Assembly: GCA_006738865.1 (NCBI GenBank)
Contig: AP019701.1
Location: 2,290,001-2,354,000 of the forward strand
Direction of reading: 5' to 3'
Source of the DNA: Allostella sp. ATCC 35155
GTDB taxonomy: Bacteria > Pseudomonadota > Alphaproteobacteria > ATCC43930 > Allostellaceae
DNA: 64,000 bases
Shown: in pieces, positions 4,364 to 40,807 of the stretch
Position numbering within the stretch: position 1 is the first letter of the stretch
How the letters are laid out: every line of letters begins with the position of its first letter
The notes under the pieces: generated by a model
Told to the model about the DNA's origin: nothing
The model's input: the letters and a program-made list of their open reading frames with translations, nothing else
Databases searched by the model: none
Program-made: the position numbers and the translations under genes

Positions 4364-5025
4364 AGGATGCCGTGGCGCGCGAAGACGTCGGCGAGCTTGT
4401 GCCCGGCCTGGAGTTCCTCCCGGGTGCGATCCTCGCCCTCGACTTTCTCCAGCGCGAGTTCCAGGCATCGCCGCTCGATCTCGACCGGCACGACCACGAT
4501 GCCGTCGCCGTCGCCGAAGACGAGGTCGCCGGACCGCACATGGACGCCGCCGCAGAGCACCGGGACGTCGATGGCGATGACCTTGCCGCGGCCCTTCGAG
4601 TCGAGCGGCCCGATGCCGCCGTGGAATACCGGGAACTTCATGGCCCGGATCTGCCGGATGTCGCGGACCAGCCCGTCGGTGACGCATCCGGCGCCGCCGC
4701 GGGCGACGGAGGCGGTCGTCAGCAGCTCGCCCCAGGGCGCAATGCGCGGGCTGCCCTGGCACGCCAGCACCGGCACTTCCCCCGGTGCCAGATCGTCGAT
4801 GAGCGCGATCTCGAGCGCGTAGGGGTTCTCGCCCGGCTCGACCGAGTAGACTTCGGCATAGAGCCCGGTCCGCGCCCGGCCGAACAGGACGAGATCCTCG
4901 TCCAGCGGCCGGATTCCGGGACGGAACGCCTGGTCCCGGTGCCCCATGCCGTCCAGGGTGTCGGACAGCACGGCGGTGAACAGCCGCTCGCGCGCCCGTG
5001 CGAGCAGGGTGTCGTCGGCACGCAT
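4360..5025 (-). CDS. RraA-like / 4-hydroxy-4-methyl-2-oxoglutarate aldolase family protein
   Basis: 221 residues, the usual size for the family. The diagnostic block WGELLTTASVARGGAGCVTD plus the following GLVRDI (residues about 98-123) carries the Arg-Asp pair (R121, D122) that in HMG/CHA aldolases binds substrate and the divalent metal. Those enzymes split 4-carboxy-4-hydroxy-2-oxoadipate or 4-hydroxy-4-methyl-2-oxoglutarate to pyruvate plus an oxo-acid in aromatic meta-cleavage routes. The same fold also includes RraA, the RNase E inhibitor. Location 35 nt downstream of a tricarboxylate-type transporter favours a catabolic lyase over RNase regulation. The substrate is inference. Confidence 0.78.
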   Translation of the reverse strand: MRADDTLLARARERLFTAVLSDTLDGMGHRDQAFRPGIRPLDEDLVLFGRARTGLYAEVYSVEPGENPYALEIALIDDLAPGEVPVLACQGSPRIAPWGELLTTASVARGGAGCVTDGLVRDIRQIRAMKFPVFHGGIGPLDSKGRGKVIAIDVPVLCGGVHVRSGDLVFGDGDGIVVVPVEIERRCLELALEKVEGEDRTREELQAGHKLADVFARHGIL

Positions 5026-5060
5026 CGGTCGGGTTCTCCGGGTCGGGGATCAGGGACGAT

Positions 5061-6554
5061 TCAGCTCGCGGGAGCCTGCCACCGACGCATGGTTCGTATC
5101 AACAACGGTGCGAACCAGACCAGCAGCGTGACGGCCCCGAGCGTGCCGGCGATCGGGCGCTCGAACAGGCCCCAGATGTTGCCGTCGGACTTGATCATCG
5201 AGCTGACGAAGGTGTCCTCCAGCAGCGCACCCAGGACGAGGCCGAGGATCGCCGGCGCGACCGGAATTCCGTTGCTCTCCATCAGGTAGCCGACAATGCC
5301 GAACACGAGCATCAGCCCGACGCCGAAGGCGGTGTTGTTGATGGCGAAGGAACCGACGATGCAGAACAGCAGGATGATCGGCATCAGCACCGATCGCGGC
5401 ATCCGCAGGATCTGCTTGGCCGCCTTGATCGCCGCCCATCCGAACGGCAGCATCATGAGGTTGGCGATGAAGAAGACGATGAACACCGCATAGAGCTGCG
5501 GCGCGTTGTTCATGAAGACGGTCGGCCCGGGGTTCATGCCCTTCATGTAGAGCACGCCGATGACGATCGCGGTGATCGAATCGCCGGGAATCCCGAAGAC
5601 CAGCGCCGGAATCCAGGCGCCGCTGACCGCGGCGTTGTTGGCGGCGCCGCTCTCGACGATGCCCTCGGGATGTCCGGTGCCGAACTTCTCGGGCTCCTTC
5701 GAGAGTTTCTTGCTCATGGCGTAGGCGATCCAGGCCGCGATGTCGGCACCGGCACCGGGCAGGGCACCGATCAGGGTGCCGAGCACGCTGCCGCGGAGCA
5801 GCTGGCGGCGGTAGGTCACCATCATCCGGCCCATGCCCGTGAAGACGTTGCCGATATTGTTCTGGACGTGGAACGGGGCGGCGCCGGGCGATGCCGCCCA
5901 GCGGATGATCTCGGACACGGCGAACATGCCGATCATCGTCGGGATGAAGCTGACGCTGCCGAGCAACTCGATCGATCCGAAGGTGAGCCGCGGGTATCCG
6001 GCCGGATTGTCGAGCCCGACCAGCGAGACGGACAGGCCGAGGAAGAGCGAGATCAGTCCCTTGACCGGATCGCCGGTCGAGATGAAGACCGCACAGGTGA
6101 GGCCGAGGCAGACCAGCCAGAAATACTCGAAGCTGGAAAAGCGCAGCGCGACCTCGGCCAGCGCCGGCGCCGCCAGCACGAGCACGATCGAGCCGAAGAT
6201 GCCGCCGAGCGCCGAGAAAACCAGACCCGCGCCGAGGGCCTGCTCAGCCTGTCCCTTGCGGGTCATGGCGTAGGCTTCGTCGGTGTAGGCCGCCGAGGCC
6301 GGGGTGCCGGGGATGCGGACGAGGCATCCCGGAATGTCGCCGGAGAAGATCGCCATGGCGGTGGCGGTGACGATGGCGGCGATCGCCGGCACCGGTTCCA
6401 TGAAGAAGGTGACCGGTACCAGCAGCGCCGTCGCCATGGTCGCGGTCAGGCCGGGGACGGCGCCGACGAAGAGCCCGAAGGCGGCCGATCCGGCGATGAC
6501 GAGAAGGACGTAGGGGTCGAGGACGAGGCCGAAGGCCGTCAGCAGCGCATCCAT
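5061..6554 (-). CDS. tctA: Tripartite tricarboxylate transporter, large permease TctA
   Basis: 497 residues, with about 12 membrane segments. The two halves each carry the family glycine-proline motif: GAVPGLTATMATALLVP near residue 32 and GALPGAGADIAAWIAYAMSKK near residue 262. This is the large membrane subunit of a TTT-family secondary importer that moves a carboxylate delivered by the periplasmic TctC protein, driven by an ion gradient. It starts 7 nt after tctB ends, so the two are co-transcribed and probably coupled. The exact carboxylate cannot be read from sequence; the RraA/HMG-aldolase-like neighbour suggests a di- or tricarboxylate or an aromatic-derived oxo-acid. Confidence 0.95.
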   Translation of the reverse strand: MDALLTAFGLVLDPYVLLVIAGSAAFGLFVGAVPGLTATMATALLVPVTFFMEPVPAIAAIVTATAMAIFSGDIPGCLVRIPGTPASAAYTDEAYAMTRKGQAEQALGAGLVFSALGGIFGSIVLVLAAPALAEVALRFSSFEYFWLVCLGLTCAVFISTGDPVKGLISLFLGLSVSLVGLDNPAGYPRLTFGSIELLGSVSFIPTMIGMFAVSEIIRWAASPGAAPFHVQNNIGNVFTGMGRMMVTYRRQLLRGSVLGTLIGALPGAGADIAAWIAYAMSKKLSKEPEKFGTGHPEGIVESGAANNAAVSGAWIPALVFGIPGDSITAIVIGVLYMKGMNPGPTVFMNNAPQLYAVFIVFFIANLMMLPFGWAAIKAAKQILRMPRSVLMPIILLFCIVGSFAINNTAFGVGLMLVFGIVGYLMESNGIPVAPAILGLVLGALLEDTFVSSMIKSDGNIWGLFERPIAGTLGAVTLLVWFAPLLIRTMRRWQAPAS

Positions 6555-33992: not shown

Positions 33993-35023
33993 ACCGCCCC
34001 TTCGGCGTCGCCCTGGTCGGCCTCGGCATGGCGGTCTCGCCCCATGCGAGGGCGCTGGCCGATCTCCGCGAGAGCGTTGTGGTGCGTCACGCCTGGAGCC
34101 CGTCCGCCGCACGCCGGGCCGCTTTCCATGCCGCGACGGGGTTCCCCGTCGCGGACAGCCTGGAGGCGGTCCTGGAGGACGCGGCGGTCGAGGCCGTCAT
34201 CCTGCTGACGCCGCCCGACACCCATCTCGAACTGGTGGAACGTGTCCTGGCCGCGGGCAAGCATGTCCTCTTGGAGAAGCCGCTCGAAGCGGACCCGCAG
34301 CGCGCGGAAGCCGTGGTGGCGTCCTGTGCCGCCGCGGGCCGCGTCCTCGGACTCGTGCTGCAGCACCGTTTCCGTCCCGCGGCTGAGCGCCTTTCGGCGC
34401 TGATTCAGGACGGAGCGTTGGGCGCGATCGTCGGGGCTGGAGCGGTCATCCGGCTGTGGCGGCCGCAATCCTACTACGACCAGCCCGGCCGCGGCCGGCG
34501 CGCGCGGGACGGCGGCGGCGTGCTGCTGACCCAGGGCATCCACACGCTGGACCTGCTGCTGTCCCTGGCCGGACCGGTCGCCGAGGTCGCCGCCTTCGCG
34601 GTCACCTCGGCGGTGCACCGCATGGAAACCGAGGACCTCGTCGCGGCGGCCTTGAAGTTCGGCTCCGGCGCGATCGGCACGGTCGATGCCACCACGGCGG
34701 CCTTTCCCGGGCAGCCCGAGCGGATCGAGATCATCGGCACGCGCGCGACCGCTTCGCTCATCGGCGCCGAACTCGATGTCCGCTGGCACGACGGCCGGAC
34801 CGAGCAGGTCCGCGGCGAGACGGGGACGGGCGGCGCCGGTGCCGATCCGATGGCGTTTCCCCACGACTGGCACCGCGCCCTCATTGCGGACTTCGCCGCC
34901 GCCGTGCGGGCCGGCCGCAGCCCGCGCGCGGACGGGGCGGCCGGCTTGGCCGTGCACGACCTGATCGGCGCGATCCTCCGATCGGCCGAGCAGGGTGCCG
35001 CGGTGGCAGTGCCGGTGCGTTAG
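33989..35023 (+). CDS. Gfo/Idh/MocA family NAD(P)-dependent oxidoreductase
   Basis: 344 residues. The N-terminal Rossmann fold opens FGVALVGLGMAVSPHARAL and has the family EKP motif (HVLLEKPLEADP) with the catalytic Lys. The C-terminal alpha/beta domain includes GGGVLLTQGIHTLDLLL, where the His is the usual catalytic residue. These enzymes oxidise sugars, inositols or sugar acids. The GTG start overlaps the upstream stop (GTGA), so it is coupled to the hydroxyacid dehydrogenase; with the divergent TRAP/lactonase genes this makes a sugar-acid pathway. Its last 4 nt overlap the convergent PCuAC gene. Confidence 0.88.
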   Translation: MNRPFGVALVGLGMAVSPHARALADLRESVVVRHAWSPSAARRAAFHAATGFPVADSLEAVLEDAAVEAVILLTPPDTHLELVERVLAAGKHVLLEKPLEADPQRAEAVVASCAAAGRVLGLVLQHRFRPAAERLSALIQDGALGAIVGAGAVIRLWRPQSYYDQPGRGRRARDGGGVLLTQGIHTLDLLLSLAGPVAEVAAFAVTSAVHRMETEDLVAAALKFGSGAIGTVDATTAAFPGQPERIEIIGTRATASLIGAELDVRWHDGRTEQVRGETGTGGAGADPMAFPHDWHRALIADFAAAVRAGRSPRADGAAGLAVHDLIGAILRSAEQGAAVAVPVR

Positions 35024-35478
35024 TGCCGCATATGCCCGGCTGCCGCGGCTGCTCCGACGGTCACGTCGACGACACGCCGGCCGGCCTTCTCGAAGGTCAG
35101 GTCGAGCGGGAAGCGGTCCCCGGCCTTCAGCGGAGCCTTCAGTCCGATCAGCATGATGTGATAGCCGCCCGGCTGCAGCTTCTGCGTCGCACCGGCGGCG
35201 ACCTCGATCGCCTGCACCGGCCGCATCCGCATGACGTCGCCGTCCTTGACCACGGTGTGCAGTTCGACCGCCTTGGCGACGGAGGCCGCGGCCGAGACGA
35301 GACGATCGGCGTCCGAACCGCGGTTGTGGATCGTGAGATAGGCCGCGCTCATCTTGCCGCTCCCGGCGGACGGGCGTGCCCACGGGGCGCTGACCTCGAT
35401 CGATGCATTCTGGGCGAGGGCGGGCAGGGCGGGGAGGATGGCGAGGGCCGCAACCGCGGCCAGGGTGCGAATGCGCAT
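35020..35478 (-). CDS. Periplasmic PCu(A)C-type copper chaperone
   Basis: 152 residues. Signal peptide (1-22, ALA-QN), then the PCuAC copper site: H74 in VELHTVVKDG, M83/M85 in DVMRMRPV, and H107/M109 in QPGGYHIML. Known members hand Cu(I) to the Cu-A or Cu-B centre of cytochrome oxidase. It ends GHMRH, adding more soft ligands. ATG 35478 has an AAAGGAA ribosome site; ATG 35502, which overlaps the upstream stop (ATGA), would add eight residues. Last gene of the copper operon. Confidence 0.92.
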   Translation of the reverse strand: MRIRTLAAVAALAILPALPALAQNASIEVSAPWARPSAGSGKMSAAYLTIHNRGSDADRLVSAAASVAKAVELHTVVKDGDVMRMRPVQAIEVAAGATQKLQPGGYHIMLIGLKAPLKAGDRFPLDLTFEKAGRRVVDVTVGAAAAAGHMRH

Positions 35479-35498: not shown

Positions 35499-35816
35499 TC
35501 ATGGCGTTCCGGCCAGCTTGCGCGGGTCGAGACGCCCGATCTCGAACGCGATGCGGACGGCCTGCGCCAGTCCGGATTCGTAGGCGCGATCGGCACAGGC
35601 CGTCTGCGCGGCCTCGATCGCCTGCCGCAGGCGGGCCGCCGCCTCGGGCGAGGGCCGTGCGGCAGCCAGCATCTGCGAGACCTCCCGCAGCGGCCCGTGG
35701 CAGAGTTCGGTCAGATGCTCGTCGAGGGCATCGGGATCGCAGGCGCCGGCGGGGGCGGGCGCGACCGCCGCCGCGAGCGCGATGGCGCTCGCGGCGGCGA
35801 TGCGGATGAGCGGCAT
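35499..35816 (-). CDS. Small secreted Cys-containing protein of the copper operon, unknown function
   Basis: 105 residues; not recognised. A clear signal peptide (residues 1-25, cleavage near AGA-C) leaves a mature protein that begins at or next to C26, with C39 in ELCHGPL and C74 in QTACADRAY; the rest is helical and Ala/Arg-rich. C26 sits where a lipobox Cys might be, but the preceding AGA fits the consensus poorly. GGAGG lies 7 nt before ATG 35816. It is placed between a TonB receptor and a PCuAC chaperone, 45 nt after the receptor gene, so a role in copper passage is the natural guess, not shown by sequence. Confidence 0.75.
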   Translation of the reverse strand: MPLIRIAAASAIALAAAVAPAPAGACDPDALDEHLTELCHGPLREVSQMLAAARPSPEAAARLRQAIEAAQTACADRAYESGLAQAVRIAFEIGRLDPRKLAGTP

Positions 35817-35861: not shown

Positions 35862-37928
35862 CTACCAGCGCAGCCGCAGCCCGCCATAGACGGCGGTGCC
35901 GGTGCCCGGTTCGAACAGGGCCGAAGCCGGCGTCGCGACGGCGGCGACGCTGGTGCTGGCGATGTACCTCTTGTCGAGCAGGTTCCGGCCGTCGACGAAG
36001 AGCGAGACGTGCTCGTTCACGTCCCAGCCGGCGCGGAAGCCGAGCAGGGCGTAGCTCTCGGTCTTCAGCGTGTTGGCGTTGTCGACATGGTAGGCGGTCG
36101 GCACCCACTCGACGTTCGGGCCGAAATAGAAGCCGGCCGGGTTGCGATAGAGCAACTCCGCCCGCAGGAAGTGCCGCGGCGCGCCGGGCAGGTCATTGTC
36201 GCCCCAGTTGCGGTCCCCGTCGAAGCGGAAGTCGCTGAAGGTGTAGGCGGCGTTGATCCACAGCCGGTCGGGATCGCTGCCGGTGGCGAAGAGGCCCTTG
36301 GCAAAGGCCCAGCCGCCGGCGGCCTCGATCCCCTGGTGGATCGTGCGGTCGGCATTGGTGACCTGATAGTTGCCGCCGCCGAGGTCGAAGAACTGGAACT
36401 CGTTCTTCAGGCGCATGTGGTAGAGGGCGACGTCCCAGGTGATGTCCGGCCGCCGGCCGCGGGTGCCGACTTCGAAGGTGGTTGCGCGCTGGGCCTTGGT
36501 TTCGGCGAGGACTACGTTCGTGAAGTTCAACTCGCCGAAGGTCGGTGCCTCGCCGCTGCGCGAGACGTTGGCGAAGACCTGCCAGCCGGCATCGACCTGC
36601 CAGAGGACACCGACCTTCGGATTGAAGAAGCTGTAGTCGTTCTCGCCGGAAGTGTCGGTCGCGTCCGGCAACCGGTCCTCGCGCTTGCGGGTTGCGCGGA
36701 CATACTGTCCGCCGGCGATCAGCGACACGCCCTGCACCACCTCGAACGCGTTCTCCGCAAAGACGGTCGTCGTCTGCGAACTGTCCTTCGAGCGGGACAG
36801 AAGGTTGCCCTTCACCGCGCCCGGCAGGTTGACGTACTGGCGGTTGTCGACATGGCCGAACGCATGGTTGACGCCGACCGTCAGCCGGTTGCGATGCCCG
36901 GCGATGTCGCGCTCGTCGGTGACGCGCGCGAACCCGCCGAAGTCCCGGTACTCGTAGTCGAGATACTGGAAGATGGGATGGATGAGGTGCTTGTCGACGG
37001 CGTAGCCGCCCACCTCGAAGGTCGTGCCCCCGATCCTGAGCGTCGTCTTGTTCGCCACCCGCAGCGAATCCATGTTCCGCTGGTAGTGCTGCACGAGGTT
37101 GCCGGCGGCGGCCCGCCTGGGATCGGTCAGGGCAGAATGCCGGGTGACCGAGCCCGGGATCTCCTGCCGGATGTCGGTGGCGTTGAAATAGAAGCGCGTC
37201 TCCAGGTCGGGCGCGATCTTCCATCCGACGTTTCCGGCGGCGCGGGTGGAGCGGCCGGCGCTGTGGTCGCGAAAGCCGTCCTGCTCCTGCCAGGAGCCGG
37301 TGATGTATCCGTCGACCGTGCCGTAGACGCCCCCGGCGCTGCCCTGCAGTCGACGGAAGCCGAAGCTGCCGAGGTCGGCCCGTCCCTGGACGAGGTCGGC
37401 GTCGTAGCCGGTCGGGGAGACGAAGTTGACTGCCCCGCCGATCGTGTTCGACCCGTAGCGCAGGGCATTGGCGCCCTTGAAGACCTCGGCGTAGCGGAAG
37501 CCGGTGACGTCGAGTTCCTGGAAGTCGCTGCTGCCGTCGGACGCGTTGATCGGCACCCCGTCCTGGAGGATCGCGACGCCGCGCATGTGGAAGTTGCGCG
37601 ACAGGCCCGAGCCGCGAATGGAGAGGCGGGAATCCTCGCCCCACTTGGGCTGGACGAAGACGCCGGGGGTGTAGTCGAGCACGTCCTTCAGGGTCGTGGC
37701 GGGCGTATCCGCCCATTGCGTGCCGGGAACGAGGGAGACGGCACCGGGGGTCTGTTCGATGGCGGTGCGGGCCGCGTCGGTCGTCGGGACCGTCAGGCTC
37801 TCCGCCGGTCGCGTGCCTTCGACGGCCAGCGGCTGCAGCTGGACCTGGGCCGCCGCGCCGCCCGCGGCGAGTGCCGAGGCGGCCGTGGCGACGCCGAGCA
37901 GATGCCGGGCCGAATGGATGTGGCGCAT
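35862..37928 (-). CDS. TonB-dependent outer-membrane receptor, probably for copper or a metal chelate
   Basis: 688 residues. Signal peptide to about residue 26, then a TonB-box-like segment, a plug domain (LKDVLDYTPGVFVQPKWGED, SIRGSGLSRNFHMRGVAIL, GANALRYGSNTIGGAVNFVS) and a 22-strand barrel ending in an aromatic residue (GLRLRW). The family imports iron chelates, vitamins or metals. Specificity is inferred from neighbours: DUF2946 and YcnI upstream and PCuAC downstream are all copper-linked families. GAGGA precedes ATG 37928, 10 nt after ycnI ends. Confidence 0.88.
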   Translation of the reverse strand: MRHIHSARHLLGVATAASALAAGGAAAQVQLQPLAVEGTRPAESLTVPTTDAARTAIEQTPGAVSLVPGTQWADTPATTLKDVLDYTPGVFVQPKWGEDSRLSIRGSGLSRNFHMRGVAILQDGVPINASDGSSDFQELDVTGFRYAEVFKGANALRYGSNTIGGAVNFVSPTGYDADLVQGRADLGSFGFRRLQGSAGGVYGTVDGYITGSWQEQDGFRDHSAGRSTRAAGNVGWKIAPDLETRFYFNATDIRQEIPGSVTRHSALTDPRRAAAGNLVQHYQRNMDSLRVANKTTLRIGGTTFEVGGYAVDKHLIHPIFQYLDYEYRDFGGFARVTDERDIAGHRNRLTVGVNHAFGHVDNRQYVNLPGAVKGNLLSRSKDSSQTTTVFAENAFEVVQGVSLIAGGQYVRATRKREDRLPDATDTSGENDYSFFNPKVGVLWQVDAGWQVFANVSRSGEAPTFGELNFTNVVLAETKAQRATTFEVGTRGRRPDITWDVALYHMRLKNEFQFFDLGGGNYQVTNADRTIHQGIEAAGGWAFAKGLFATGSDPDRLWINAAYTFSDFRFDGDRNWGDNDLPGAPRHFLRAELLYRNPAGFYFGPNVEWVPTAYHVDNANTLKTESYALLGFRAGWDVNEHVSLFVDGRNLLDKRYIASTSVAAVATPASALFEPGTGTAVYGGLRLRW

Positions 37929-37938
37929 GTCGGCGTCC

Positions 37939-38502
37939 TCAGGAGCGCGGCAGGAGGAGGAGGACGGGCGCCGGCTCGCGCAGCCGTTCGCGCTGTTGTC
38001 CGGGAGCCGGCTCCTCGATCCAGCGATGCTCGCCCTCGCTGCAGCGCTGAATGACGGGAAAGGCCAGGGAGTCGCCCGGACGGTTCGGAAGCCGGACATG
38101 GAAGGCGAATTCGTCGAACTGCCAATCCTCGAGGCGTCCACCCGTCCAGACGATGCGGCCGACCCGCTCCGTCACCATGGTGCCGTGGCCGTCGCGGAAG
38201 GGCGCCGCCAGCGGCTCGCGGACGACCGAGACCTGCCACCCCGGCTTGGGTTGCGGCTTGGCGCCGACGACGCCTTCGGGAAGCTGGAGTTCGATTTCGA
38301 CGGTCGGCGAGGCCTTGCAGCCATGGCCGATCCGGACCGAGAGCTTCTGATAGCCGCCGGCGACGGCGGTCCGGCTGTCCAGCACCGCATGGGCGCCGGC
38401 ATCGACGGGGAAGAGGATCGCCGCCGCGACGAGCGCGGCGCCGATCATGGGAGCGCGGGTGAGCCGCTCGCCGGGCGAGCGGCCGCAATGGCCGATATTC
38501 AT
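37939..38502 (-). CDS. YcnI/DUF1775 family copper-binding protein
   Basis: 187 residues. After the signal peptide (cleavage at DAGA-H) the mature chain would begin with H38 (HAVLDSRTAVAGGYQKLSVR), as in YcnI, where an N-terminal histidine makes a mono-histidine brace for Cu(II) with nearby Glu and Trp. Acidic and Trp candidates are present in EIELQLPEG and GRIVWTGGRLEDWQFDEF. The usual C-terminal membrane helix is absent, so the protein may be soluble. A TCCGGAG ribosome site precedes ATG 38502. Confidence 0.87.
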   Translation of the reverse strand: MNIGHCGRSPGERLTRAPMIGAALVAAAILFPVDAGAHAVLDSRTAVAGGYQKLSVRIGHGCKASPTVEIELQLPEGVVGAKPQPKPGWQVSVVREPLAAPFRDGHGTMVTERVGRIVWTGGRLEDWQFDEFAFHVRLPNRPGDSLAFPVIQRCSEGEHRWIEEPAPGQQRERLREPAPVLLLLPRS

Positions 38503-38571
38503 CGGGATCTCCGGAAACGATATTCGCAAGCGCCGGCGGCGAGCGCGAGGCCGCGGCCGGCTACGGGTCGT

Positions 38572-39000
38572 TCAGGAGAGGGCGGGCGGTCCCCGGGCGG
38601 TCTGGGGGCGGTGATCGCGGGCGCCGGGTGCGGCGGCGGCAAACGGCGGCAGCCAGACGGAGCCGGGTTCGAACTGCGGCAGTGTCGCCGCCGGAGCGGC
38701 TGGCGGCGGCACGGCCGGCGTGATGCAGAGCTGGCAGTGCCAGCCGCCGTCCGGCGGGAGCACGTCGCCGGCCGGCGCGGTCTCGCCAGTCGCCGGCTCG
38801 GCGAGGCGGAGGCCGTCGATCGTGCAGATCGGAACGATGCGGCCGAGCGCGGCCGTGGCGGTCCCGTCCCCGAGGCGGATTGGGCCCAGGGCGGGGACGA
38901 GAAGCTGGAGGAGGAGCGCCCAGACGAGCAGGCCGGACAGCCAAGCGCGTCGCGCCGAACCGCCGGTTTCGCCCTTGTCTCTGTCGTGTGCCCGCCCCAT
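38572..39000 (-). CDS. DUF2946 family protein, possible copper-sensing leader ORF (CruR-like)
   Basis: 142 residues. A membrane/signal helix (about residues 20-38) precedes C59 (IVPICTIDG) and the family motif HCQLC (C89, C92). Just after come VPPPAAPAA (prolines 98-100 and 103), PP at 118-119 and PP at 138-139. DUF2946 proteins head copper-linked TonB operons; one, CruR of Bordetella, is to my knowledge a regulatory upstream ORF in which copper binding to the CxxC of the nascent chain interacts with proline-dependent stalling. The same parts are present here, and 69 nt separate it from ycnI. Function as a regulator is inference. Confidence 0.78.
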   Translation of the reverse strand: MGRAHDRDKGETGGSARRAWLSGLLVWALLLQLLVPALGPIRLGDGTATAALGRIVPICTIDGLRLAEPATGETAPAGDVLPPDGGWHCQLCITPAVPPPAAPAATLPQFEPGSVWLPPFAAAAPGARDHRPQTARGPPALS

Positions 39001-39011
39001 GGTCGGTGGGG

Positions 39012-39040
39012 AGGGTAGGTGTCCAGGCCGGACGAGGCAA
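39012..39040 (-). promoter_or_regulatory. Candidate promoter of the copper operon
   Basis: Minus-strand TTGCCT (39035-39040), a 17-nt spacer and TACCCT (39012-39017). The start would fall only a few nucleotides before the DUF2946 ATG, so if correct the leader is almost absent. Shared gap with the divergent kinase gene. Confidence 0.3.
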
Positions 39041-39094
39041 GCGTCACCCTGTCACGGGTCGCCCATTCACGGTGAGGCAACGGGAGATGTCCGG

Positions 39095-40807
39095 ATGACC
39101 GAATCCTTGCTGCCCGACTTCGTCCTGCGCGGTGAGATGGCGGCGCTCGTCCGTGGCTTCGACTGGGGCAGGACCAGGCTGGGCCCCCGCGAATCCTGGC
39201 CCGCCAGCCTCAGTGCCTGCGTCGACATCGTCCTGGCGACCCCGGTACCGATGGTCATCCTCGGCGGGCCCGAAGGCGTCATGATCTACAACGACGCCTA
39301 TGCCGTCTTTGCCGGCGGCCGGCATCCGGCCCTTCTCGGCAGCGTGGTGGTCGAGGGCTGGCCCGAAGTGGCGGACTTCAACCGCCGGGTTCTCGACGTC
39401 TGTCTGAAGGGCGGTACGCTCTCGTTCCGGGACGAGCATCTGGTCCTCCATCGCCATGGCGTGCCCGAGGACGTCTGGATGGACCTGAACTACAGCCCCG
39501 TCCGCTGCGCCGACGGCCGGCCCTGTGGGGTGCTGGCCGTCGTGGTCGAAACGACTGGGCGGATGCTGGCCGAGCGGCATCGGCAGGAGGCGGAGGAGCA
39601 GCTGCGCCAGCTCAATGCCAGTCTCGAGGATATGGTCGTGGCGCGCACCGAGGAACTGCGGCGTGCCGAGGCGCATCTCCAGCAGGCCCAGCGCATGGAG
39701 GCCATGGGTCAGCTGACGGGCGGAATCGCCCATGACTTCAACAACTTACTGCAGGCACTTGCGGCTTGCCTTTCGATCATCGGCCGGCGGGTCGACGAGC
39801 CTGCGATCGCTCCGATCCTGGCCGCCGGGCAGCAGGCGGTCGATCGCGGGGCCAAGCTGACCCAGCAGCTGATGGGCTTCGCGCGACGCGAGAGCTTGCG
39901 GCCACAAGCCTTTGATGTCCGTGAGCAACTGGTCGGCATGACGGGGCTCATCGAACGTGCGCTGCGGGCCGATATCGCGGTGCGCCTCGCGCTGGCTCCC
40001 GATCTCTGGCCGGCGGAGGCCGACCCGACCCAGTTCGAACTCGCCGTCCTCAATCTGGCCGTCAATGCCCGCGACGCCGTACCGGGGGCGGGACAGTTCG
40101 AAATCACCGCCGAGAACCAGCCCGCCGGCGACGGGGGCGCGGCCGGAGGCGACCTTGTGCGCATCCAGGTCCGCGACACCGGCAGCGGCATGGCGCCGGA
40201 CGTGGTCGCCCGCGTCTTCGAACCCTTCTTCACGACCAAGGCGGTCGGTAAGGGCTCCGGGCTCGGCCTGTCGCAAGTCTACGGCTTCTGCCGGCAGTCG
40301 GGCGGCAGCGTGACGGTCGAGAGCACGCCGGGCGCGGGAACGACCGTGACGATGCTGCTGCCGCGGGCGGTCGCGAGCGTCGAGCCGGCAGAGGCCGCGC
40401 CGCCGGCGCCGGTGGGTGTGCCCTCCGGCGCCCGGCTGCTGCTGGTCGAGGACGATCCGCTGGTCGGCAGCGTCGTCGCGTCCTCCCTCGATGAGCTGGG
40501 ATACGCCGTCACCCTGGTGACGACGGGCGACGAGGCGCTGAACCGCCTGCGCGGCGCGGCCGAATTCGACCTGCTCTTCAGCGACATGGTGATGCCGGGC
40601 AGCATCGGCGGGGCAAAGCTTGCGCAGGCGGCCGCGGCCTTGCGGCCCGGCCTGCCGGTCATTCTCGCCACCGGCTACAGCGAGGAGGTGCGGATGGTGG
40701 GGGAACTGAGGATCCTGCCCAAGCCCTACCGGATCGAGGAACTGGTAGCCGCCATCGAGCAGGAACTGGCGGTGCGCCGGGCCGCTCAGCCCCCGGCGTC
40801 GGAATAG
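39095..40807 (+). CDS. Hybrid sensor histidine kinase/response regulator with PAS input
   Basis: 570 residues. A PAS domain (about 25-165; VPMVILGGPEGVMIYNDAYA), a coiled-coil of Glu/Gln/Arg heptads (about 165-205), the phospho-accepting His in QLTGGIAHDFNNLLQAL, an HATPase domain with N box (LNLAVNARDAV), GSGMAP and GKGSGLGLSQVYGF, and a C-terminal receiver domain (LLLVEDDPLVG with acidic pair, phospho-Asp in LLFSDMVMPG, Lys in ILPKPYR). No membrane segment, so it senses a cytoplasmic cue. There is no separate response regulator beside it. The last 22 nt overlap the convergent dehydratase gene. Confidence 0.93.
   Translation: MTESLLPDFVLRGEMAALVRGFDWGRTRLGPRESWPASLSACVDIVLATPVPMVILGGPEGVMIYNDAYAVFAGGRHPALLGSVVVEGWPEVADFNRRVLDVCLKGGTLSFRDEHLVLHRHGVPEDVWMDLNYSPVRCADGRPCGVLAVVVETTGRMLAERHRQEAEEQLRQLNASLEDMVVARTEELRRAEAHLQQAQRMEAMGQLTGGIAHDFNNLLQALAACLSIIGRRVDEPAIAPILAAGQQAVDRGAKLTQQLMGFARRESLRPQAFDVREQLVGMTGLIERALRADIAVRLALAPDLWPAEADPTQFELAVLNLAVNARDAVPGAGQFEITAENQPAGDGGAAGGDLVRIQVRDTGSGMAPDVVARVFEPFFTTKAVGKGSGLGLSQVYGFCRQSGGSVTVESTPGAGTTVTMLLPRAVASVEPAEAAPPAPVGVPSGARLLLVEDDPLVGSVVASSLDELGYAVTLVTTGDEALNRLRGAAEFDLLFSDMVMPGSIGGAKLAQAAAALRPGLPVILATGYSEEVRMVGELRILPKPYRIEELVAAIEQELAVRRAAQPPASE

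Follow-up and report, generated by a model that had tools for sequence, protein, structure and literature searches.

A probable DUF2946 copper leader of Allostella sp. ATCC 35155 with predicted pairing between its last codons and the Shine-Dalgarno sequence of ycnI

Background

Within a 64,000-nucleotide stretch of the Allostella sp. ATCC 35155 genome (contig AP019701.1, positions 2,290,001 to 2,354,000; hereafter the window), a short open reading frame with a Cys pair and several proline pairs stands in front of a set of copper-handling genes. The locus raises the question of whether this frame is a nascent-chain copper sensor and, if so, where the ribosome would arrest and how the arrest would reach the next gene. 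In Bordetella pertussis, CruR is the poorly structured DUF2946 leader of the cruR-bfrG/crtA-bp2921 operon, with CxxC at residues 90-93 and RAPP at residues 139-142, three residues from the end, and a spacing between these motifs of 45 that is conserved to within one or two residues (PMC9426467). Copper sensed by the CxxC is reported to relieve the arrest, upon which Rho stops transcription, as shown with bicyclomycin and in vitro Rho assays; YcnI, PCuAC and TonB receptors are already listed among the CruR-type operons, in which the first position is the rule for the leader (PMC9426467). RAPP and RGPP are described as robust arrest motifs that are refractory to EF-P, CruR arrests in vitro with its third motif codon in the P site and its fourth in the A site, and upstream frames with RAPP or RGPP, considered putative arrest peptides, are over-represented before YcnI-family, TonB and PCu(A)C genes (PMC12992588), while RAPP arrest is also known by cryo-EM (PMC10951233). 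The CutF leader of R. capsulatus incorporates a CxxxC motif and ends in PEGPPPRL (PMC8456105). A stem-loop lies over the Shine-Dalgarno (SD) sequence of its target cutO, which copper turns on, and for the 5,334 CutF-like proteins counted in the same paper the action of the groups is said to need more study (PMC9973294).

The leader and its putative operon

The leader protein (Table 1) reached 26.3 bits against DUF2946 (PF11162; cut-off 23.7) in an hmmscan comparison with Pfam and covered profile positions 4-117 of 117, in line with the family that an earlier note on this DNA had named. Its frame, HCQLC at residues 88-92, PPP at 98-100, further proline pairs and a distance of 69 nt to ycnI are all as that note had described them, and the membrane or signal helix it had claimed is visible as a single N-terminal hydrophobic stretch at approximately residues 19-41. 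In full, the motifs are H88-C89-Q-L-C92, PPP 98-100, PP 118-119 and 138-139, and RGPP 136-139, followed by A-L-S and TGA. Both Stella relatives that carry the leader (G001 and G003) have an ATG at the place matching its start. A whole-genome Pfam search did not list the leader, though the protein exceeds the cut-off in hmmscan, and such searches were therefore not used for counts. A second DUF2946 gene in the genome was considered and rejected, as the whole-genome Pfam search gave only one weak match with an internal stop; an alignment search of this genome likewise returned a single match, the leader itself, and no second copy.

Table 1. Features of the leader locus, in positions of the window
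Feature	Position	Strand	Basis
DUF2946 leader ORF, 142 aa, first gene of putative operon	38572..39000	-	Pfam
CxxC (C89-C92) preceded by H88, proposed copper site	38725..38736	-	sequence, alignment
RGPP (136-139), proposed arrest motif, expected stall with P138/P139 in the P/A sites	38584..38595	-	analogy with PMC12992588
Tail codons A-L-S, footprint of a ribosome stalled on RGPP	38575..38583	-	prediction
69-nt intergenic hairpin region	38503..38571	-	prediction
ycnI SD sequence GGAGA, predicted to pair with the leader tail codons	38508..38512	-	prediction
ycnI (DUF1775), 187 aa, ATG at 38502	37939..38502	-	Pfam, 4.6e-45
TonB-dependent receptor, start codon uncertain	35862..37928	-	Pfam
Small Cys-containing protein, signal-like N-terminus	35499..35816	-	occurrence in genus
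PCuAC copper chaperone	35020..35478	-	Pfam, 2.9e-40

The gene upstream of the leader is divergent, and the leader heads a putative operon with the copper genes behind it, namely ycnI, the TonB receptor, the small Cys protein and PCuAC, as had been proposed. The same order of genes is found in G001 and G003, while no leader match was found in G002, a fourth member of the genus in 570 contigs. The divergent neighbour that adjoins the leader is a PAS/histidine kinase with a receiver domain; its frame as listed (38720-40807, plus strand) overlaps the leader and its true start is therefore probably further in. The nearest solved structures to the TonB receptor, by sequence, are PqqU/YncD. An OprC-type copper receptor was rejected, as TIGR01778 is not among the 21 families matching the receptor. 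No family matched the small Cys protein above its cut-off. Among the 99 genomes searched it occurs in 3/4 genomes of the genus, the window's included, with one weak match (E 3.3e-5) in one further genome, and its Cys residues are common to the three Stella genomes.

The proposed arrest motif

In the earlier reading of this locus the ribosome arrests at PPP 98-100, directly after the CxxC. This PPP is present in the window and prolines occur thereabouts in some other leaders, but both Stella relatives lack it, with VAPVEA (G003) and VAPPAE (G001) in its place, so that it is unconserved even within the genus. In the alignment of 33 leaders, no proline column of this region reaches 90 % and one reaches at least 70 %. 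Furthermore, the PPP lies only six residues past the CxxC and, given the length of the ribosomal exit tunnel, the sensor would be left sitting inside the tunnel. PPP 98-100 was therefore rejected as the arrest site, and this reading is given almost no credence. The arrest motif is instead taken to be RGPP 136-139, and as arrest on RAPP-like motifs, that of CruR among them, has been mapped with the third motif residue in the P site and the fourth in the A site (PMC12992588), a pause is to be expected at codons 138/139 rather than near codon 100. What stands of the earlier proposal is the CruR kind of DUF2946 leader in an alphaproteobacterium, without the polyproline just after the CxxC as its arrest site.

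The RGPP lies three residues before the end of the leader and 43 after the CxxC. Among the 344 stop-to-stop frames of at least 90 codons in the window, two end in R[AG]PP followed by at most six residues, of which the leader is one. The other frame, at 1073-2272 on the minus strand, ends in RAPPVPTR. Among the ycnI loci of relatives (the best 80 of 125, two of them without upstream sequence), 27/80 have, in the 600 nt that precede the ycnI match, a frame with a Cys motif and a near-terminal R-x-PP. In the window and these 27 relatives the x of the motif, which the filter left unconstrained, is G in fourteen and A in fourteen, the last Cys is 42-47 residues from the R in 25/28, and the PP is followed by three residues in 23/28 and two in 5/28. 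When the alignment of 33 leaders described below was used as the query, 65 of 386 alphaproteobacterial genomes and 73 of 398 from Pseudomonadota gave a match, the two groups overlapping in part. Fifty-four of the 58 new loci gave a leader with x-x-PP near its end (the other four gave none), and 53/54 of these are R[AG]PP (42 RAPP, 11 RGPP), a count favoured by a profile built from R[AG]PP leaders and by a script that preferred R/H/Q and then A/G/S where several frames fitted. The spacing from Cys to R is 42-48 residues in 45/53 leaders of this second set, and a three-residue tail is found in 39/53 of them and in 31/46 leaders of the first set described below.

In the alignment of 33 leaders the second Cys of the CxxC and the R, P and P of R-x-P-P are invariant, in part by selection, since the rows were chosen for R[AG]PP and for Cys in the right region; the first Cys of the CxxC and C59 are conserved at 90 % or above. 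RGPP is kept in all three Stella leaders, including that of G001, in which CVIA replaces the CxxC (codon GCC for the second Cys). This leader (4699-5124 of locus L093), with its second Cys changed to Ala, offers a naturally occurring variant in which the part played by the two Cys can be probed. Taken together, the leader is very probably a copper leader of the CruR kind. With R[AG]PP copper leaders already in print, the device as such is known, and the locus is one more member of it.

Predicted SD pairing in the window and in Stella

In the predicted fold of the window junction, TCTCC of codons 141-142 (38575-38579) pairs with the GGAGA of the ycnI SD sequence, and GAACGA (38568-38573), which overlaps the stop codon, has TCGTTT (38515-38520) as its partner. 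In all three Stella junctions the predicted fold pairs the ycnI SD with the end of the leader, both its final codons and its stop codon, the strongest of the three being the 11-bp stem of G001, despite its lost second Cys. The window hairpin by itself is unremarkable (z -1.48; 14/200 shuffles fold equally well), and the hiding of its SD ranks at 0.122 against 40 of its own shuffles and 0.024 against other gene ends. If the message is masked as far as an RGPP-stalled ribosome would reach, the predicted accessibility of the window SD rises from 0.19 to 0.55, with a small gain in G003 (0.22 to 0.27). By prediction, the locus combines a CutF-like stem-loop over the next SD, with the leader's own last codons as the partner strand, and a SecM-type position of the SD partner beneath the arrested ribosome.

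Family-wide fold tests

The first set comprised 46 leader junctions, in which the next gene is ycnI (27), a TonB receptor (18) or PCuAC (1). Thirteen frames ending in R[AG]PP were left out, eleven with no next gene recognised and two without Cys, and locus L013 was replaced by the equivalent region of G003. Start codons were chosen by script, with seven shifted by the script and that of L030 shifted by hand to an ATG; L048 was set back to its original start for the fold tests, and the stem-score test below used other starts for L030 and L048. The 53 R[AG]PP leaders of the new loci (one of the 54 being otherwise) formed the second set, with starts chosen by a script with a slightly different score, including a bonus for a hydrophobic N-terminus; 52 were used in the fold test, one duplicate of the first set having been dropped, and 53 in the footprint, masking and end counts.

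In the first set (n = 46) the mean unpaired probability of the SD was 0.199 when the final 40 nt of its own leader were included and 0.345 with no leader end, compared to 0.309 with dinucleotide shuffles (p 2.7e-6) and 0.339 with the ends of other genes (p 4.3e-7), p-values here and below ignoring phylogeny save for the removal of six near-duplicates from the first set and one duplicate from the second, in which near-relatives were retained. An earlier run on this set, against other gene ends only, gave p 3.7e-6, and without the six near-duplicates (n = 40) the values were 4.7e-5 against shuffles and 7.7e-6 against other ends. The own end fell in the lowest tenth in 22/46 junctions against shuffles and 23/46 against other gene ends. 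The second set (n = 52) gave 0.266 with the own end, 0.336 with shuffles (p 1.3e-4) and 0.352 with other ends (p 6.3e-5), with 16/52 and 18/52, respectively, in the lowest tenth. Controls lacked the effect: seventeen other junctions of the same operons gave 0.459 vs 0.460 (p 0.54; lowest tenth 0/17 against shuffles and 2/17 against other gene ends), and 46 script-called ordinary junctions with spacers of 40-120 nt gave 0.326 vs 0.335 (p 0.44; lowest tenth 4/46). The signal was weaker in an ungapped stem-score test that dispenses with folding, with p 1.4e-4 relative to the tails of other genes and 0.02 relative to other SDs (279/20000 permutations).

The predicted partner of the SD peaks at the very end of the leader, where the first set has values of 0.32, 0.36, 0.39, 0.50, 0.61 and 0.38 for codons -5 to 0 and the second 0.23, 0.44, 0.51 and 0.34 for codons -4 to -1; further upstream the values are at most 0.15 and 0.09, respectively. 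In leaders with a three-residue tail, codons -5 and -4 occupy the P and A sites at an RxP|P stall and codons -3 to -1 are covered by the ribosome, as a stalled ribosome shields 15-16 nt past its P site. Predicted pairing of the last 18 nt of the leader with 40 % or more of the SD occurs in 23/46 and 20/53 leaders, compared to 3/46 ordinary junctions; the remaining 56/99 leader junctions fall below this threshold. Masking to the ribosome edge raised the mean accessibility from 0.199 to 0.353 (46 junctions) and from 0.265 to 0.361 (53 junctions), with a small rise in the ordinary junctions too (0.326 to 0.369, p 0.04; 46 junctions), and gains above 0.2 occurred in 17/46 and 13/53 leaders and in 5/46 ordinary junctions.

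The hiding of the SD is clearest at spacers of 56-100 nt, where 18/33 first-set and 11/34 second-set junctions lie in the lowest tenth against shuffles, compared to 2/8 and 3/12 at spacers above 100 nt and 2/5 and 2/6 below 56 nt. None was found in eight junctions of family f173 (L126-L130, L132, L134 and L136), whose ranks against shuffles run from 0.29 to 1.0.

Base composition of the leader ends

In the window, the final 78 nt of the leader show an excess of C over G of 0.28, or of 0.24 when Pro and Gly codons are removed. The family mean is 0.151 vs 0.019 at 123 other gene ends, or 0.084 vs 0.020 without Pro and Gly codons (p 3e-5), a skew that fits a Rho loading site as well. CTGA ends 81/99 leaders and 40/108 other genes (p 4e-11), and CCTGA ends 55/99 leaders (loci L014-L092 and L095-L153) and 8/108 other genes. 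TCAG near the start was found in 19/46 first-set junctions, 7/53 of the second set and 7/79 other starts; as it is enriched in the first set only, SD pairing explains the CTGA excess just in part, and something besides SD pairing may shape the leader ends.

Proposed mechanism and alternatives

The mechanism that we propose joins a sensor of the CruR type to an output of the SecM type. The leader would be translated with its N-terminal segment targeting the membrane, and the ribosome would arrest on R136-G-P-P139 while its P site holds P138 and its A site P139, by analogy with the mapped RAPP/RGPP peptides. With that place free of a ribosome, folding predicts that the ycnI SD is paired to the end of the leader, stop codon included, which would shut the first structural gene. 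A ribosome arrested on RGPP would cover codons 140-142, the strand that hides the SD, so that ycnI could be initiated and the message downstream would be translated and shielded from Rho. The CxxC, 43 residues before the arrest motif, would lie near or outside the tunnel exit, and copper on C89-xx-C92 would release the arrest, as reported for CruR; copper would thereby shut the uptake operon, which in its absence would be kept on by the stall and the free SD. We give this full mechanism a probability of about 0.6. The folding of both sets, with their controls, supports the SD-hiding step across part of the family only.

The skew of C over G at the leader end, in the window and across the family, could also serve the mode of CruR itself, in which arrest does no more than keep Rho off a loading site within the leader, copper leads to Rho termination before ycnI and the SD pairing is incidental. 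This mode was demonstrated for the B. pertussis leader with bicyclomycin and in vitro Rho assays (PMC9426467). Against it, the predicted SD pairing is stronger in both sets than with shuffles or the ends of other genes and centres on the stretch that a stalled ribosome would cover, and the 69-nt spacer is shorter than the 162 nt of CruR (PMC9973294), so that Rho as the sole output appears rather unlikely. A hidden SD and Rho may well cooperate, as Rho would have access to a ycnI message that is not being translated. More improbable is the reverse polarity, in which periplasmic copper prolongs the arrest and the operon is on with copper: CutF, a DUF2946-like leader that also comes from an alphaproteobacterium, has a stem-loop which hides an SD (PMC9973294), but the motifs found here are CruR-like (CxxC and R-x-PP three residues from the end) instead of CxxxC and PEGPPPRL, and the operon, with its TonB receptor and PCuAC, resembles uptake and delivery and not a detoxifying oxidase. 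The signal-like segment and the CxxC would also suit a periplasmic copper-binding protein that acts in trans, with its C-terminal prolines for protein contacts, a role initially considered for CutF (PMC8456105). However, the bases at the leader ends are biased, as the CTGA counts illustrate, and are predicted to pair with the SD of the next gene, and cutF and cruR have no action in trans (PMC9973294, PMC9426467), which makes such a protein very improbable.

Wider reading

Under the proposed CruR-type sensor with SecM-type output, the new part of this locus is likely the output, that is, the predicted uncovering of the ycnI SD by the arrested ribosome. A literature search of open-licence papers found no description of SD hiding by the tail codons of copper DUF2946 leaders. 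A term search of the main text of PMC12992588 found neither stem-loop nor Shine-Dalgarno, and no output mechanism was found in its passages on copper RAPP/RGPP leaders. There is perhaps an even chance that copper DUF2946 leaders with R[AG]PP and spacers of approximately 56-100 nt make up a class of their own, whose two or three codons behind the motif act as an anti-Shine-Dalgarno strand, with amino acids that vary and bases that are held to the pairing, long-spacer relatives such as the Bordetella CruR being the Rho-only branch. If so, the near-fixed distance from R[AG]PP to the stop codon would be set by the ribosome footprint, which would explain why three codons mostly separate the motif from the stop. 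The same type of nascent-chain copper sensor would then drive two kinds of output in different lineages, a metal-sensing nascent chain being shown to be wirable to different outputs, and tail codons acting as anti-Shine-Dalgarno would provide a sequence-level answer for a share of the CutF-like proteins.

Comparison with known systems

SecM controls secA by an arrest near its C-terminus that opens a stem and frees the Shine-Dalgarno sequence. The leader described here is predicted to share this C-terminal-near arrest and the freeing of an SD from a stem, whereas SecM senses secretion, arrests at RAGP and has no known copper site. SecM has been discussed in both PMC9973294 and PMC10951233. With CutF the leader has in common an alphaproteobacterial DUF2946-like protein, copper and, by prediction, a stem-loop over the SD of the next gene. 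It differs in its CxxC and RGPPALS, where CutF has CxxxC and PEGPPPRL; furthermore, published descriptions place the CutF stem-loop between cutF and cutO, and copper turns the CutF target on. The motif and the downstream families are the same as those of the RAPP/RGPP upstream frames reported in PMC12992588. The closest likeness in parts is to CruR, with DUF2946, an export signal, the CxxC, R-x-P-P three residues from the end and the head position in a copper TonB operon, the spacing from CxxC to motif being 43 in the leader and 45 in CruR and the tail three residues in both. The differences from CruR are RGPP instead of RAPP, a spacer of 69 nt vs 162 nt, ycnI as the next gene and the predicted pairing of tail codons with the SD, where CruR is described with Rho termination.
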